Shown here: one piece after another, positions 43,970-50,542 of the stretch
Position numbering within the stretch: the first letter of the stretch is position 1
Layout of the letters: each line of letters opens with the position of its first letter
Source: Clostridia bacterium
Lineage (GTDB): Bacteria; Bacillota; Clostridia; Oscillospirales; CAG-272
Direction of reading: 5' to 3'
Assembly: GCA_017938205.1 (NCBI GenBank)
Contig: JAGBCA010000024.1
Coordinates: forward strand, 1-50,598
DNA: 50,598 nucleotides
Position numbers and translations under genes: made by a program
The notes under the pieces: model-generated
Databases searched by the model: none
Told to the model about the DNA's origin: nothing
What the model saw: the letters and a program-made list of their open reading frames with translations, nothing else

Positions 43970-45151
43970 ATGATTCAAAGAGAACATTATATTGAGCAGG
44001 TACGCCCCTTTTACGAATCCGATCTGATCAAAATTATCACGGGCATCCGCAGATGCGGAAAATCGGTGATCATGGAGCAGATCATCCGCGAAATCAGCAA
44101 AAAAACGGACAACATTATCTATTTGAATTTTGAGGATAAAAGGACGTCTGCAAACATAACGAGCGCAGACCGCTTGATCTCTTACGTGGAGGAAAATAAA
44201 AAAAACGGAAAATGCTATCTTTTTTTTGACGAGATCCAAACCCTGGACGGCTGGCAGGATGCGTGCAAAACCCTGCGACTTTACGATTATTCCCTTTTTA
44301 TCACGGGATCAAACTCTAAACTTTTATCCGGCGAGTTCACAAAGGAGCTTGCAGGCAGATACGTAGCCTTTCGCATCCGTCCCTTCGTTTATAAGGAAAT
44401 CGTTGCATACGGCCAAGAGCTTTCGAGAGAAATATCCGTCACGGATTATCTTGTCTGGGGCGGCTTTCCGAAAAGATTTGAATTTGATTCTCCCGAGGCG
44501 GAGCGCAGATATCTGAACGATTTAGACGATACGATCGTTATTAACGATCTGATCCGAAGATACAAAATACGCAAGGAAAGCCTGTTTAAAAACTTGGTGA
44601 ATTTTATACTACGCAGCAACGGTCGCATTTTTTCTGCAAATTCCATTCATGATTATATCACGCGGGAGCACGATAGCTGCTCCATCAACACGATCATGAA
44701 ATATCTCGGATATTTGGAGGAAGCGTATATTATTGAATCGATCAAGCAATATTCCACAAAAACCAAAAGGGAGCTTTCGTATTCCGCTAAAATATACAAT
44801 GCAGACGTTTGCTTCAATTCCATTCGATGCATGAACAATCGCTTTGATCTTTCGCATAATCTTGAAAATATCGTGTATAACGAGCTTGTCTATAGAGGCT
44901 ATGAGCTCTACGTGTATAATAACAACGGTAAAGAGATCGACTTTTTAGCCACCAAGGGAACAAAGAAATATTACGTGCAGGTTGCCTATAGTGTAGCCGA
45001 GGATAAAGCATACCAAAGAGAATTTTCCGCATTCAAAAGCATTGACAATCTTTCACAAAAAATTATAATCACGAATGACGATATCGATTATTCCACAAGC
45101 ACCGTCAAGCACGTGAAGCTCAAGGATTTTCTTATGATGGAAGAGCTTTGA
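43970..45151 (+). CDS. AAA ATPase, DUF4143 type
   Basis: 393 residues. Walker A ITGIRRCGKS is at about 23-32 and Walker B YLFFDEIQT near 83. ITGSNSKLLSGEFTKELAGRY is the sensor region of this family. The C-terminal part has ELVYRGYELYVYNNNGKEIDFLATKGTK (in two halves), the nuclease-like fold with Asp and Lys. GAGGTG precedes the ATG. Together with the gene at 25397 it is one of two diverged members in the window. AT-rich, with a consensus promoter and flanking direct repeats, it looks acquired. Its role is not established. Confidence 0.9.
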   Translation: MIQREHYIEQVRPFYESDLIKIITGIRRCGKSVIMEQIIREISKKTDNIIYLNFEDKRTSANITSADRLISYVEENKKNGKCYLFFDEIQTLDGWQDACKTLRLYDYSLFITGSNSKLLSGEFTKELAGRYVAFRIRPFVYKEIVAYGQELSREISVTDYLVWGGFPKRFEFDSPEAERRYLNDLDDTIVINDLIRRYKIRKESLFKNLVNFILRSNGRIFSANSIHDYITREHDSCSINTIMKYLGYLEEAYIIESIKQYSTKTKRELSYSAKIYNADVCFNSIRCMNNRFDLSHNLENIVYNELVYRGYELYVYNNNGKEIDFLATKGTKKYYVQVAYSVAEDKAYQREFSAFKSIDNLSQKIIITNDDIDYSTSTVKHVKLKDFLMMEEL

Positions 45152-45213: not shown

Positions 45214-45297
45214 TATAAACTTTGACACAAGACATTCTTCGCTGATTTTTTAATTGTTTTTTGCTCATCGGCATAGCCTTCATAGAACCCCGCCACT

Positions 45298-45328
45298 ATG
45301 CGTGTTATCCTTAACGGAGAACACGCAT
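45298..45328. repeat. 9-bp hairpin at the edge of the repeat ladder
   Basis: ATGCGTGTT (45298-45306) pairs perfectly with AACACGCAT (45320-45328), right before the ladder of GTGAAGTT units. Confidence 0.6.
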
Positions 45329-45500
45329 AACTAAGTTTGCCCTCTGGGCAAGTGAAGTTTACTTCGTAAGTGAAGTTATCCTACGGATAGTGAAGTTTTG
45401 CCTTTGGCAAAATGGGCAAACTTAACTTCACTGCGAGCCCCCGCGAGCAACTTCACTGTGTATCACACAACTTCACTTTTGCGACAGCAAAAACTTCACT
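45329..45500. repeat. Symmetric GTGAAGTT / AACTTCAC repeat ladder
   Basis: AGTGAAGTT occurs at 45351, 45369 and 45389, plus a degraded copy at 45329. Its reverse complement AACTTCACT occurs at 45424, 45449, 45469 and 45492. The units are separated by small hairpins: TTGCCC/GGGCAA, TTAC/GTAA, ATCC/GGAT, TTGCC/GGCAA at the centre, then GTGT/ACAC and TTTGC/GCAAA. Folded, four forward units face four reverse units, with hairpins jutting out on both sides. Not a CRISPR. Function unknown. Confidence 0.85.
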
Positions 45501-45521
45501 GACAGAAATAAGATCCGCAAG

Positions 45522-45556
45522 AAAAATGCACACGGCATAGAGCCGTGTGCATTTTT
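45522..45556 (-). terminator. Terminator of the large surface-protein operon
   Basis: A perfect 15-bp stem (45522-45536 with 45542-45556) with a 5-base loop and A/T ends. On the minus strand it follows the 58-residue gene by 24 bases. Confidence 0.88.
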
Positions 45557-45775: not shown

Positions 45776-48700
45776 TTAGTTTGCCTGTGCAAGCACTACG
45801 TTTCTTACGTAGTCGTCTGCATAGTAAGCGTAGTTGTAAAGTGCGATCACGACAGCACTTTCTGTTTCATCCATGCTGAAAGCATAGTTTTCAAGGCTGT
45901 AGGTGTAGGTCTCGCCATCCACCTCGATCGTCATTTCGCCAAAGAAATCGTTGACGTAGAGATCCTCGAAGATAACGATGCCGTTCTCGCCAACGGTTGC
46001 ACGCTCGATGCGTCCGGTTGCAAGCGTGAGAACCACTTCCTTGCCTACGGCAACGAAGGTCTCGCCATCCTTTGCGCTCTGAACCGCAATTGCGATCGTG
46101 TCGTTCAGCTGGAAGGCAATGCCGGAAAGAAGCGTGCCTGCGTTCTCGGAGGGAGTCAGTGCGGGAGAGTTGTTATCGTAGCCATCGGGCATCTCTGCAT
46201 CCTTGCAGAAGTCAGCGTTTCCGTTCATGGCTCTTACGTACTCGATCATAGCGTAGGTAAGCTTCTTTGCGGGAACGACCGCTGCATCCTCGGAGGCAAG
46301 AACTGCCATTGCGTAGTTGCCGATACCGGTGGTGAGGTTGTGAACGTGGCCGTTTACGCTTACGGTTACGGGGATGGATTCATCCGCCTTGTCGGGAGCG
46401 ATCGCAACGGTAAGAACGTAGTAGCCCTCAACAGCCTCCATATCGGAGAGAACGAAGGTCTCGCCGTTTACGGTCACGGTTGCGCCGTAGCAGGCCTCGG
46501 CAAGAAGCAGGTTCATGCTGATCTTGCTCTGCAGAGTGAGGTTCATTCTCACAACGCCCGCCTCGATGGAAACGAGTGTTGCAGTCGCGGTGTTGGTTCC
46601 ACCGGTTACATCAAGGTTTGCGAAGGAGTAAGTGAATACGTTGTCGATCACTGCATCCTCGTGCATTGCAACCGAGCCTACAACCCAGGTCTCGGTGATG
46701 CCGAAGCCCCATTCAACGGTAGCGGTTTCAATGGAGGTGTAGCAGCACACCTTGTATTCCTTATCGCCGTAGGTCGCGTTATAGAATGCGGCGGTCTTGC
46801 CATCGGGAGCCAAAGGCATGGCGGCCAGGAGGTCTGCCATCGTGGAGGCAACGAGAGAGCCTGCGAAGGTCACGGTGGTCTGGTCGTAGGTCTTGGTCAG
46901 ATCCACGTTGATCAGCTCGCAGTCCGTGATGTTCAGCGCGATACTTATCGTTCTCTTCTGATCGTATCCAATGGAGAAGGTGTTGTGCGTGGTAAAGCCG
47001 AAGAGGGTGGGCTTGCCTGCGGTCGCATATACGTCCACGTTCTCGATCGTGTAGACGCTATCACGGCCGTAGTTGGGAGCCGCAAATGCAGCGGCAACGC
47101 TCGGATTCGTCAGCTCAAGAATGAAATCCTTGAGAGTTACGGTGCCGGCAGCGGTGAATGCGGTGTGCGCACCGCTGTAGGTGTACTTACCGCCGATCAC
47201 GCTTACGATCGTGCTCGTGTTGGGCTCGGTCAGACCAACCACAGCACCCTTGGTAACGACCTCAAGGTAGTCACCCTCGATCACGATATGATTGCGGTCT
47301 GCTTCACCAACGGCGAAGAGCACGTAGTTCGTGGGGTTATAGATCTTCGCGCCTGCCGCGGAGGACGTGAGCGTGAAGGTCTTGCCTGCGGTTCCCTCCA
47401 GGCCGAAAACAGCTCTGGTGTATTCGCCGTAGCCATTGGCGTTGGAAACGTCAACAGGGCTCGTGAAATCCTCTGCGATCGAGAGCGTCTTGCCGTTCAG
47501 GTCAAGGGTAATATCGCCGTTTGCAAGACTCAGATAGTTGTAGTGACCTTCTCCATCAAGGACATACGCACCGAAGCCGATACCGCGAGAGAGCGTCATA
47601 TCCGCATACAGAGTGATCACGTAGGAGGAGATGGGAGCGTTGAAGATCTCGTAGAACTTATCGCCGATGCCAATTTCATCGCCGCACTCGGAAACGAGAG
47701 CGTAGTATTCTACGCCCGTCTTGGTGTCAACGTAGAGGAAGGCAAGAGGCTCGCTGTCGTTGAATACGATCGCAACGGTTTCTTCGCCTGCGGCGGTAAC
47801 GATGCCGTTTTCGTCAATGCTTTCAAGAGCAACCAGATCAAATGCGGGGTTGGTCTTGAGAACGCCGCCCTCGCGCTTGGTCATGTTTGCTACCTCGCGT
47901 GCGGGCTTGGAGCCGATCGCCCAGTACTCGGTGCCGGTCTCGCCCCAGGAGAGCTTCAAAGCCTGATCTGCCGTGGTAACTACGCCGTCAAGCGTGTAGG
48001 TCTTTTCGAGAACGGTGATCTCCTTGGAGGTCGTGCCGTGTGCAAGGAACTGCTCGGCATCGCTGATATCAACGTCTGCTGCGGAGTAAATACCGGTCGT
48101 GCCATAAGCCGCATTGGTATAAGCAACGTACGCAGAGCCAAGGTAGGGCTGAACGTTTACGAAGTTACAGTCCACAAAGCTAAATACCTTTGCATTCAAT
48201 GCAAGATCGGTGTAGGCCGTGAGAGCCACGCCGCCGTTTGCATTGGAAGAAATGAAGGTGCAGTTCGTGAAGGTTCTGGGCGAGTTGCAACGCAGATAGA
48301 GAGGTGCGGTAATGGGGTTCGAAAGCACGAATGTTACGTTCTTTACGTTCTGAACGTGAGAAGTACTTTCGGTCTCGCGTCCTAAAATAAGGAAGTGAGA
48401 TGCGGCGCTGCCCTCGCTCTGCACGTAGGTGCCGCCGTTGATCGTCATGCCCGTTCCGTGCATGGAGGTGTTGATTTGCTTACAGTAAACGGTAAGGTTC
48501 TTGCCGTAATCGGTGCGAGTGTTGTCGTACTCGCCGATATAGAACGAACCGTAGTTATGATCGGTGCCGTACCATCCGTCATCGGTATGGACAAAGGCTG
48601 CAACGCTGCTCGTATCGATCACGCCGCCTGCCTTCGAGGAATACATATAAAATGCGGAATGACAAACGTTGAGCGCGGCGCTCGTTTTTGCCGAGGTTAC

Positions 48701-50542
48701 GGTGAGCGTATAGCCGTTCAGGTCAAGACGATACGCAACGCCTGCCTTGCCGTTAACAGCGAAGCCTGCAGTGGTGATGTCCGAATAGAGAACCACGGTG
48801 GAGCCTGCGGCATTCATTGCTTCCATATATGCCTTGAAATCTGCACCGAGGGTTTCTGCATTCGTGAAGTAGATGGGGTTGCCGCCGGTTAAGTAAGCTG
48901 CGAAGTACACCTTCGCAAGCTCGCCGTCCACGTAGGTCTGCGTTGCATTGAAGGCTGCATCGTAAGCATAAGTTGCGGTGGGATCCAGAGCAGCGAATAC
49001 CTCGCCGTTCACTACCTTCTCGTAGGGAGCGGGATCGGCTGCCTTGGGATGGGTTTCAACAAAGGCCTTTGCCTCTTCAAGAGAGGTTGCATAGTAGGAA
49101 GAGGTCGATCCGTCTGCCCAGGTCACGGTACTGTAAGCAACGGCATTCTGCGCGTCGGGATCTTCTTCCGTAACGGGGTTTTTGGTGTTCGTTACGGCGA
49201 GGGTTGCGTTAACATCGCCCTCCTTGATAGCATCCTGTGCCACGCCGTAGAAGGCACAGCCGTCTGCAGTAACGCTTTTATCTTTGGTGGTATAAAGAAG
49301 AGATGCGCTATCCGAGGTATAGAAATTGCAGTTCTTTGCCGTGACCGAGCCGGCTTCAGTGCTGTTGAGAACCGCGTTCGAGCCGGGAAGCAGATAGAAG
49401 CTTGCGTTCTCCATGGCGTATTGCAGCTCCGGCAGACGGTTTTTGTCCAAGCCGACGCGGCGGGAAACGTTGAACATTCCGTTCGCGGAGGGAGCGCTCT
49501 GGTAGAAATGGCCGCCGTTGATGGCGATACCCGTACCGTAGAGGTATTCGTTGATCGCCTTGCAGTGGAAATAGATGTTATCCGAATAATCGGTTTCTGC
49601 ATTGTTATCATCACCAAGAACGATAGCAGCATCGTCATTGGAGCGGAACATCGTGCCCGTCGAAGCAGAAGCATCGTAATGTGCGCCCGCCTTCGAGGAA
49701 TAGATGTAAAGCACCATGCCCATAACGTCGCAGTAACCCGTTTGCGTGTTCGTGAGATTATGGCCGTTGAGATCAAGAAGCACCGATGCGGGATATTGGT
49801 TGCCCGCTCTTGTTACGGCACCGTTGATCGTCGTTGCAGGTCTGTCAGCACCGTTTCTATCCCACTTGATGGTGGAGATCGCATTATCCTCGTGCAGAGT
49901 GATCTTCGCGGTATTTGCACGAAGGGAGCGGATGTCCTGATAGTTGTAGGTCACGCCGTTGATCTCAAACGAGCAGGTCGCGTAGTTCAGGAACTTATGA
50001 ACTGCGTTTGCTTCGGTGAGATACAGCTTGTAATTGCCGGCAGGGATCTTGCGAGCCGCCTCGTCAAGCTCGTACGTCGAGGCTTCGTAATACTTCTTGT
50101 CGGTTGAATTATACGCAGCGACAGATACGGTCGTCGTGCCTGCCATTACGTACTCCGTGTCGTTGAGGCAGATCACGTAGTCGCCCTCGGCGATGGTGAT
50201 GTCCACCGTAGCGTACACCTTATCAAAGCCCGAAGCCGTGATCTTTGCACCGGCGTTGATCAGGTCTTGTGTGATCTCGGTCACAGGCTGGCCTGCCTCG
50301 TCCGTATAGATCCAGCCTTGGCCGGCATCCTTATAAAGTGTATTACCCTTTCCGTAATAAAGACCATCCTGCGCCGCGATGGACGGAGTGATGGCACCCG
50401 CTTCCGTGTATGTATCCACGGTACCGTCGGGGTAAACAACGGTAGCGGTCGTGCTATCGTCTGCAAATGCGGCTACGGCGAATACGCCAACCAGCAGCAC
50501 GAGAGAAAGCACGAGCAAGAGAATTTTCTTTGCGCTTTTCAT
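45776..50542 (-). CDS. Large secreted protein with three beta-solenoid-like repeats
   Basis: 1588 residues. A signal peptide (1-27, cut site AFA/DD) has KSAKK before the hydrophobic core. Three related regions of about 200 residues recur near 215-435, 585-800 and 985-1190; each has LDLNG (about 254, 605 and 1012), and the first two share YSSKAG and TG-x-x-INGG. They look like right-handed beta-helix modules. The C-terminal 200 residues (from about 1390, LTLQSKISMNLLL) resemble a tail module of other Clostridia surface proteins. No LPxTG or cohesin/dockerin motif is seen, so attachment is unknown. AAGGAG precedes the ATG. Confidence 0.88.
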   Translation of the reverse strand: MKSAKKILLLVLSLVLLVGVFAVAAFADDSTTATVVYPDGTVDTYTEAGAITPSIAAQDGLYYGKGNTLYKDAGQGWIYTDEAGQPVTEITQDLINAGAKITASGFDKVYATVDITIAEGDYVICLNDTEYVMAGTTTVSVAAYNSTDKKYYEASTYELDEAARKIPAGNYKLYLTEANAVHKFLNYATCSFEINGVTYNYQDIRSLRANTAKITLHEDNAISTIKWDRNGADRPATTINGAVTRAGNQYPASVLLDLNGHNLTNTQTGYCDVMGMVLYIYSSKAGAHYDASASTGTMFRSNDDAAIVLGDDNNAETDYSDNIYFHCKAINEYLYGTGIAINGGHFYQSAPSANGMFNVSRRVGLDKNRLPELQYAMENASFYLLPGSNAVLNSTEAGSVTAKNCNFYTSDSASLLYTTKDKSVTADGCAFYGVAQDAIKEGDVNATLAVTNTKNPVTEEDPDAQNAVAYSTVTWADGSTSSYYATSLEEAKAFVETHPKAADPAPYEKVVNGEVFAALDPTATYAYDAAFNATQTYVDGELAKVYFAAYLTGGNPIYFTNAETLGADFKAYMEAMNAAGSTVVLYSDITTAGFAVNGKAGVAYRLDLNGYTLTVTSAKTSAALNVCHSAFYMYSSKAGGVIDTSSVAAFVHTDDGWYGTDHNYGSFYIGEYDNTRTDYGKNLTVYCKQINTSMHGTGMTINGGTYVQSEGSAASHFLILGRETESTSHVQNVKNVTFVLSNPITAPLYLRCNSPRTFTNCTFISSNANGGVALTAYTDLALNAKVFSFVDCNFVNVQPYLGSAYVAYTNAAYGTTGIYSAADVDISDAEQFLAHGTTSKEITVLEKTYTLDGVVTTADQALKLSWGETGTEYWAIGSKPAREVANMTKREGGVLKTNPAFDLVALESIDENGIVTAAGEETVAIVFNDSEPLAFLYVDTKTGVEYYALVSECGDEIGIGDKFYEIFNAPISSYVITLYADMTLSRGIGFGAYVLDGEGHYNYLSLANGDITLDLNGKTLSIAEDFTSPVDVSNANGYGEYTRAVFGLEGTAGKTFTLTSSAAGAKIYNPTNYVLFAVGEADRNHIVIEGDYLEVVTKGAVVGLTEPNTSTIVSVIGGKYTYSGAHTAFTAAGTVTLKDFILELTNPSVAAAFAAPNYGRDSVYTIENVDVYATAGKPTLFGFTTHNTFSIGYDQKRTISIALNITDCELINVDLTKTYDQTTVTFAGSLVASTMADLLAAMPLAPDGKTAAFYNATYGDKEYKVCCYTSIETATVEWGFGITETWVVGSVAMHEDAVIDNVFTYSFANLDVTGGTNTATATLVSIEAGVVRMNLTLQSKISMNLLLAEACYGATVTVNGETFVLSDMEAVEGYYVLTVAIAPDKADESIPVTVSVNGHVHNLTTGIGNYAMAVLASEDAAVVPAKKLTYAMIEYVRAMNGNADFCKDAEMPDGYDNNSPALTPSENAGTLLSGIAFQLNDTIAIAVQSAKDGETFVAVGKEVVLTLATGRIERATVGENGIVIFEDLYVNDFFGEMTIEVDGETYTYSLENYAFSMDETESAVVIALYNYAYYADDYVRNVVLAQAN

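Follow-up and report, generated by a model that had tools for sequence, protein, structure and literature searches.

The window (the whole 50,598-nt stretch of Clostridia bacterium contig JAGBCA010000024.1 that was analysed) carries a ladder of short repeats at 45329-45500. It lies between two convergent frames, an upstream ATPase gene on the plus strand that ends at 45151 (AAA_14/DUF4143 by Pfam) and a 1588-aa frame on the minus strand that ends at 45776. The latter (window 45776-50542) has a signal-peptide-like start, as judged by eye, and no Pfam match. The window copy of the ladder has a degraded left rung AACTAAGTT (45329-45337), three exact left rungs AGTGAAGTT (at 45351, 45369 and 45389) and four right rungs AACTTCACT (at 45424, 45449, 45469 and 45492), with a small hairpin separating each neighbouring pair. 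The preliminary description of this locus had overlooked that the unit extends 5' of the ladder to include a hairpin at 45297-45329, and that 45332-45342 (TAAGTTTGCCC) is the exact complement of 45414-45424. The features are listed below, with the changes in each helix being those among nine aligned copies.

45297-45329 (+): hairpin H0, with arms 45297-45310 and 45316-45329; similar hairpins lie directly 5' of the ladder in copies from the same genome and genus
45300-45319 (+): GCGTGTTATCCTTAACGGAG inside H0, the left terminal repeat of the genus-type element
45328-45401 (+): match to Rfam Gut-1 (RF01706), 50.3 bits at a gathering score of 50
45329-45337 (+): degraded first rung u0, AACTAAGTT
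45332-45342 (+): block A, TAAGTTTGCCC, pairing with A' at 45414-45424
45337-45351 (+): hairpin hp0, TTGCCC / GGGCAA, invariant across the nine aligned copies (helix 1)
45351-45359 (+): left rung u1, AGTGAAGTT
45359-45369 (+): hairpin hp1, TTAC / GTAA (helix 2; double changes at two pairs)
45369-45377 (+): left rung u2, AGTGAAGTT
45377-45389 (+): hairpin hp2, TATCC / GGATA (helix 3; double changes at three pairs, one pair lost in four of the nine copies)
45389-45397 (+): left rung u3, AGTGAAGTT
45397-45411 (+): hairpin hp3, TTTGCC / GGCAAA (helix 4; double change at one pair)
45414-45424 (+): central block A', GGGCAAACTTA, complementary to block A
45424-45432 (+): right rung u'1, AACTTCACT
45432-45449 (+): hairpin TGC...GCA (helix 5; double changes at two pairs)
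45449-45457 (+): right rung u'2
45457-45469 (+): hairpin TGTGT / ACACA (helix 6; double changes at two pairs)
45469-45477 (+): right rung u'3
45477-45492 (+): hairpin TTTTGC / GCAAAA (helix 7; double changes at two pairs)
45492-45500 (+): right rung u'4
45501-45513 (+): stump of the right module, GACAGAAATAAGA, recognised by comparison with other copies
45522-45556 (no strand assigned): terminator-like hairpin with A and T tracts, perfectly paired over 15 bp, between the two convergent open frames

Comparison with other copies revealed that the window copy is without the remainder of the right module and the right terminal repeat. Terminator arms were absent around it.

The RNA fold of 45300-45530 had a z value of -6.1, with none of 200 shuffles equally stable, and the DNA folds of 45329-45500 had z values of -6.2 on the plus strand and -5.8 on the minus strand (0 of 200 shuffles each). 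The rung ladder with inter-rung hairpins that was first described at 45329-45500 is present there and far from chance, with a fold z of about -6 as RNA or DNA. The stacked four-way junctions proposed alongside it held up in part: the DNA minimum-energy folds of both strands contained the predicted ladder with three four-way junctions, whereas the RNA minimum-energy fold, computed on the longer stretch, was partly different, and rung changes, when tested, gave no sign of being specific to the predicted partner.

Comparison between copies revealed that the fold is under constraint. A fully paired 4-bp outer stem was found in 71% of 250 inter-rung segments (those long enough among 283 distinct ones) versus 4% when the arms were swapped. 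For the window subfamily, nine of eleven members were aligned, excluding two, of which one carries a nested insert and the other an additional unit; 98% of the cells paired in this alignment, whose structure was taken from the window copy, which favours that structure. Double changes occurred at 12 of 35 pairs versus 7.5 in shuffles, with 1 of 500 shuffles as high, and the covariation score was reached by 0 of 500 shuffles. The count of further pair types in these nine copies was no higher than in shuffles.

Rung codes, assigned independently for left and right halves, were complementary in all 82 classified loci (TGAAGT 15, TGAAAT 34, TGATAT 24, CGATAT 4, TGAATT 3, and TTATGA 2); these belong to a set of 99 loci, some of them near copies of each other or repeat readings of one element, the other 17 being unclassifiable with fewer than two clear rungs on one side. 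When near-duplicates sharing a 45-mer were dropped, 72 loci remained, of which 58 were classified, all 58 with complementary codes, and 14 were unclassifiable. A code-free version of the comparison found at least five matching letters in 85 of 114 cores, compared with 24% of between-element pairs. Further codes were glimpsed beyond the six counted, and rung sequence varied within one genome, while the rungs within one element were alike and its hairpins differed. Blocks A and A' were complementary over at least 8 nt in 84 of the 99 loci and in approximately 14% of swapped pairs, the covariation, rung-code, and A/A' counts all sharing ancestry. The selection on structure suggested by the preliminary description is borne out, as hairpins covary and left and right rungs change together. 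Rung-by-rung compensation, examined for two codes (21 and 6 elements), showed no partner-specific signal, and the pairing register is therefore taken from the predicted fold only; the covariation fits rung-to-rung pairing and two mirrored copies of one array alike.

The left half of the ladder corresponds to Rfam family RF01706 (Gut-1), which it matched with 50.3 bits against a curated threshold of 50 and with which it shares the same sort of rungs and three hairpins. Since this half is already an Rfam entry, the full novelty proposed earlier is not supported. The Rfam model, with 77 positions, covers the left half only, and the right half, A', H0, the right module, and the terminal repeats lie outside it. 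In an Rfam scan of 16 loci, only Gut-1, tRNA, and tmRNA reached gathering scores, and nine of the 16 ladder-bearing loci scanned were without a Gut-1 match at that score. Rfam classes Gut-1 as 'Gene; sRNA'. The parts of Weinberg 2010 considered here (PMC2864571) mark it 'Y' (certainly RNA), list it from human gut only, and count it among likely expressed noncoding RNAs. In the titles and abstracts surveyed from the open-access literature, we met no description of the full element, the rung codes, the residence in terminator loops, or the reading as DNA.

Of 59 genomes, comprising the own genome and its relatives, 46 contained Gut-1. So did 64 of 391 genomes of the class, belonging to 24 families by manual count, in a survey with stricter filters and few candidates scored per genome. 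The preliminary description had named two outcomes that would speak against it, a ladder found in no other genome and copies that keep the hairpin sequences and lose their pairing. Neither came true, because the ladder occurs in other genomes, the hairpins covary, and left and right rungs change together. Genomes G028 and G058 contained 55 and 52 Gut-1 matches, some of them two halves of one element, and their subfamilies were alike although the two belong to different families. In the own genome, the window's rungs cluster at nine sites, one of them in the window itself; five sites are at contig ends, and some of these five are possibly two ends of one copy. At least one further own-genome element carries a different rung code (L404/L411). 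The element is a family of repeats, multi-copy, dispersed, and without a coding gene in the own genome and its relatives, in agreement with the gene-free dispersed repeat suggested at the outset.

A phage or plasmid origin was rejected: the window ladder had no match in phages or plasmids, a search covering the window subfamily only, and the GTGAAAT pattern, present in at least 120 IMG/VR stretches, belonged to a two-sided ladder only in L175 and L227 among 80 loci screened. L227 has three tRNA genes. The ATPase cassette (AAA_14/DUF4143) was likewise rejected as a partner, the gene being widespread and exact TGAAGT- or TGAAAT-type rung clusters being nearby in none of 80 loci.

Most copies examined are built in one order: H0 comes first, followed by rung u0, block A, and a hairpin; three rungs and their hairpins then lead to A', after which come as many as four complementary rungs, again with hairpins, and the right module. 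L328 and L450 are exceptions to the H0-first order. By inspection, the H0 type is mostly tied to the right-module type, while the ladder core and rung code combine with several, and L405 has mixed ends. The type found in the own genus is an element of approximately 350 bp with imperfect terminal inverted repeats, GCGTGATACTCTTAACGGAG and CTCCGCTAAGRACATCACNC, which match in part; the left one lies within H0, and the right module terminates in the other. A set of 25 genus-type elements, chosen from loci already collected by both terminal repeats and right-module motifs with flanks ignored, measured 314-446 bp.

Several variants were seen beside this plan. Own-genome copies C3 and C55, as well as L360-L362, L394, and L396, harbour a further small palindromic repeat (GGGGTTCCCCGAAGCGAAG...GAGCTTTGGGGGTTC and variants), nested either within hairpin loops or within the right module. 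At L151 (G006:C68; 24 rungs) and L159-L161 (G025), GTGATAT rungs and hairpins are strung into long arrays that run in one direction and have no complementary half. At L366, complementary terminator-like arms enclose an H0 that has no ladder, perhaps what is left of the two ends, and at L420 (G034) the right-module hairpin alone forms the terminator-like hairpin behind a homologous gene. At L410 (G007:C52), two sequences resembling the right terminal repeat face inward on either side of a 275-codon frame that matches DUF5104; this is possibly a cargo-bearing relative.

Genus-type elements reside in the loops of terminator-like hairpins. Arms that complement each other over at least 8 nt flanked 23 of the 25 elements, and arms of at least 12 nt flanked 14, compared with 63 of 476 and 0 of 476 when flanks were swapped and 5 of 349 and 0 of 349 in shifted windows. 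By eye, the arms resemble intrinsic terminators, with A and T tracts. In an uncontrolled manual count among loci pre-selected for arms, 23 of 34 had convergent stop-to-stop frames of at least 100 codons ending no more than 30 nt from the arm on both sides. Without selection for arms, 59 Gut-1 loci in G028 and G058 included 49 classifiable ones, a few of them halves of one element, of which 25 had convergent flanking genes, 20 co-directional, and 4 divergent; the same crude gene caller found convergence in 9 of 75 other neighbouring gene pairs (Fisher p = 3e-6). In other lineages, the ladder lay behind a tRNA gene plus a terminator-like hairpin in 8 of 12 class-level loci fetched, and at many loci it starts directly behind a tRNA or tmRNA gene and a hairpin with a T tract. 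At the tRNA-linked copies L444, L447, L451, and L453, the right or left flank holds a AACCATTCGGCTTTTCCA-like sequence before another terminator-like hairpin; this sequence is reminiscent of a degenerate tRNA 3' terminus, as though successive units had stacked up behind tRNA genes.

RNA hairpins prefer GNRA loops. In the right halves of ladders, GNA made up 25 of 47 triloops and GNNA 40 of 59 tetraloops (GNRA 19, GNYA 21), and the left halves had the reverse complement, with TNC in 50 of 66 triloops and TNNC in 25 of 28 tetraloops (14 and 11 in the classes corresponding to GNRA and GNYA). Terminator-like hairpins from the window and the non-viral loci collected by then had GNRA 19, GNYA 2, and TNNC 14 among 75 tetraloops, and GNA in 1 of 25 triloops. 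The right ladder halves and the terminator-like hairpins differed in GNRA:GNYA ratio (p = 0.0009) and in GNA triloops (p = 2e-5), the loop and mismatch counts being phylogenetically non-independent. Non-standard stem pairs comprised eight G.T and one A.C in the right half, none and four in the left half, and 14 others; the division of G.T and A.C between halves gave p = 0.007, from only 13 cases and with the split made after seeing them. Loops of the forms GNA and GNNA, whichever base N is, give exceptionally stable DNA mini-hairpins according to the portion of PMC4686876 considered here. Taken together, these statistical patterns suggest that the right half folds on the plus strand and the left half on the minus strand, as DNA. 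Because GNA and GNNA loops occur without a GNRA preference, unlike in terminator-like hairpins, they speak for a fold of single-stranded DNA and against an sRNA.

Candidate partner enzymes were sought by association with Gut-1, and the Y1 and IS110 transposases were rejected for want of one. Y1 transposase (PF01797) did not track Gut-1, occurring in 13 of 46 positive and 5 of 13 negative genomes and in none of G000, G028, and G058 (incomplete drafts). Among the 59 genomes, IS110-type transposase (PF02371) occurred in 2, which both lacked Gut-1. Ten frames near L351, L366, L368, and L410, where ends are ladder-free or oddly placed, had no transposase domain by Pfam. The left-end pattern gave 43 matches in 18 of 40 genus genomes, and a ladder or its remnant lay behind it in 27 of 30 loci examined; neither these loci nor the ten frames revealed a parent element. 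By eye in the 25-element set, a possible target duplication of 3-4 nt was seen at L408, L398, and L377; many others were without one, and no consistent duplication was seen. For one own-genome element, 60 genomes were searched, and among the loci listed the 29 from other genomes had no ladder in the stretch displayed behind the homologous upstream gene; several had an ordinary hairpin there, with differing terminator sequences. A second attempt found one homologous downstream gene with a different neighbour. Neither attempt yielded an exact empty site; in relatives the neighbours and the terminator sequences differed as well.

We propose, with a probability of about 0.5, that the window ladder is one copy, truncated on the right, of a palindromic repeat that is dispersed and non-autonomous and that most probably acts as folded single-stranded or extruded DNA. 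On strand separation, the rungs and mini-hairpins would fold; a predicted trans-acting transposase or recombinase would recognise the folded DNA together with the terminal repeats, and would move the unit into further hairpins (terminator loops) or, for other lineages, to positions immediately after tRNA terminators. Because such sites are outside genes, often between convergent ones, the host would tolerate the insertions. Counting against the proposal are the failure to find an enzyme, a consistent target duplication, or an exact empty site, the rating of Gut-1 as RNA in Weinberg 2010, the 24 of 49 classifiable loci outside convergent gene pairs, the TNNC loops that terminator-like hairpins have too, and the lack of terminator arms at the window copy. 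A bolder form of this proposal, which we regard as doubtful, takes Gut-1 as a whole to be a self-folding DNA mobile element and not an RNA, with a changeable pairing code, one recombination machinery, and terminator hairpins as landing pads. Since A, A', and the rungs change together, recognition would then proceed via base pairing in folded DNA and not via a fixed protein motif.

The Rfam view, in which the ladder is transcribed as a structured noncoding sRNA or an mRNA 3' end element, draws on the type 'Gene; sRNA', the 'Y' rating in the parts of Weinberg 2010 considered (PMC2864571), and the highly stable RNA fold. We consider it unlikely: the structured RNA also entertained in the preliminary description is disfavoured by the loop types, which include many triloops and lack the GNRA preference of terminator-like hairpins, and many ladders start directly after a tRNA or tmRNA gene and its T-tract hairpin, where that transcription should stop. 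Copy number and patchiness are like those of repeats, and a single promoter-like match was found around the window copy versus 0.8 in shuffles. A compact RNA fold could instead, on either strand, let the arms of an interrupted bidirectional terminator meet, so that both convergent genes terminate, a kind of intron-like camouflage. The elements between terminator-like arms, often between convergent genes, fit such a model, as does a palindromic ladder that folds about equally well from both strands under DNA parameters; it is nevertheless improbable, as it would leave the loop types and the copies behind intact tRNA terminators unexplained.

Convergent-gene bias and foldability on both strands could also, by analogy with BIMEs, reflect a chromosomal DNA-structure element, a cruciform or topoisomerase site where convergent transcription stresses DNA. 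Copies behind tRNA genes, wide rung variation within one genome, unlike a fixed binding site, and patchiness among relatives make this very unlikely. Finally, template-switch correction of quasipalindromes could yield double changes without selection, and mutational upkeep of this kind, pairing stems and homogenising rungs with no function, would account for rungs that are alike within an element while hairpins differ. It predicts neither the loop classes nor the recurring module order, the A/A' match in 84 of 99 loci, or the terminator residence, and we hold it to be highly improbable.

Read as a folded-DNA repeat, the element can be set beside several known systems. REP/BIME elements are extragenic palindromes in inverted pairs near gene ends, served by RAYT (Y1) transposases; the ladder element is likewise an extragenic palindrome with inverted pairs near gene ends, but Y1 does not track it, it has many hairpins per unit, and its rung code varies. 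MITEs (ERIC, Correia) and modular BOX elements are short, dispersed, and gene-free, with terminal inverted repeats and modular inner units, all of which the ladder element shares (the terminal inverted repeats in its genus type); it differs from them in its terminator-loop residence, in a target duplication not consistently seen, and in a ladder core that occurs with different ends. IS200/IS605 elements and integron attC sites are recognised as folded single-stranded DNA, as we infer for the ladder element, which in contrast has no linked Y1 enzyme and a far more elaborate architecture. Group IIC introns sit next to terminator hairpins, a location that the ladder element shares, but no intron RNA matched in the 16 loci scanned.

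What is curated as an RNA family seems to represent one half of a folded-DNA repeat, and this would alter the annotation of Gut-1 matches across gut Clostridia. The variable rung codes on common ends provide a natural test of whether folding alone or sequence matters in recognition, and residence in terminator loops provides a testable rule for landing sites that are harmless to the host.
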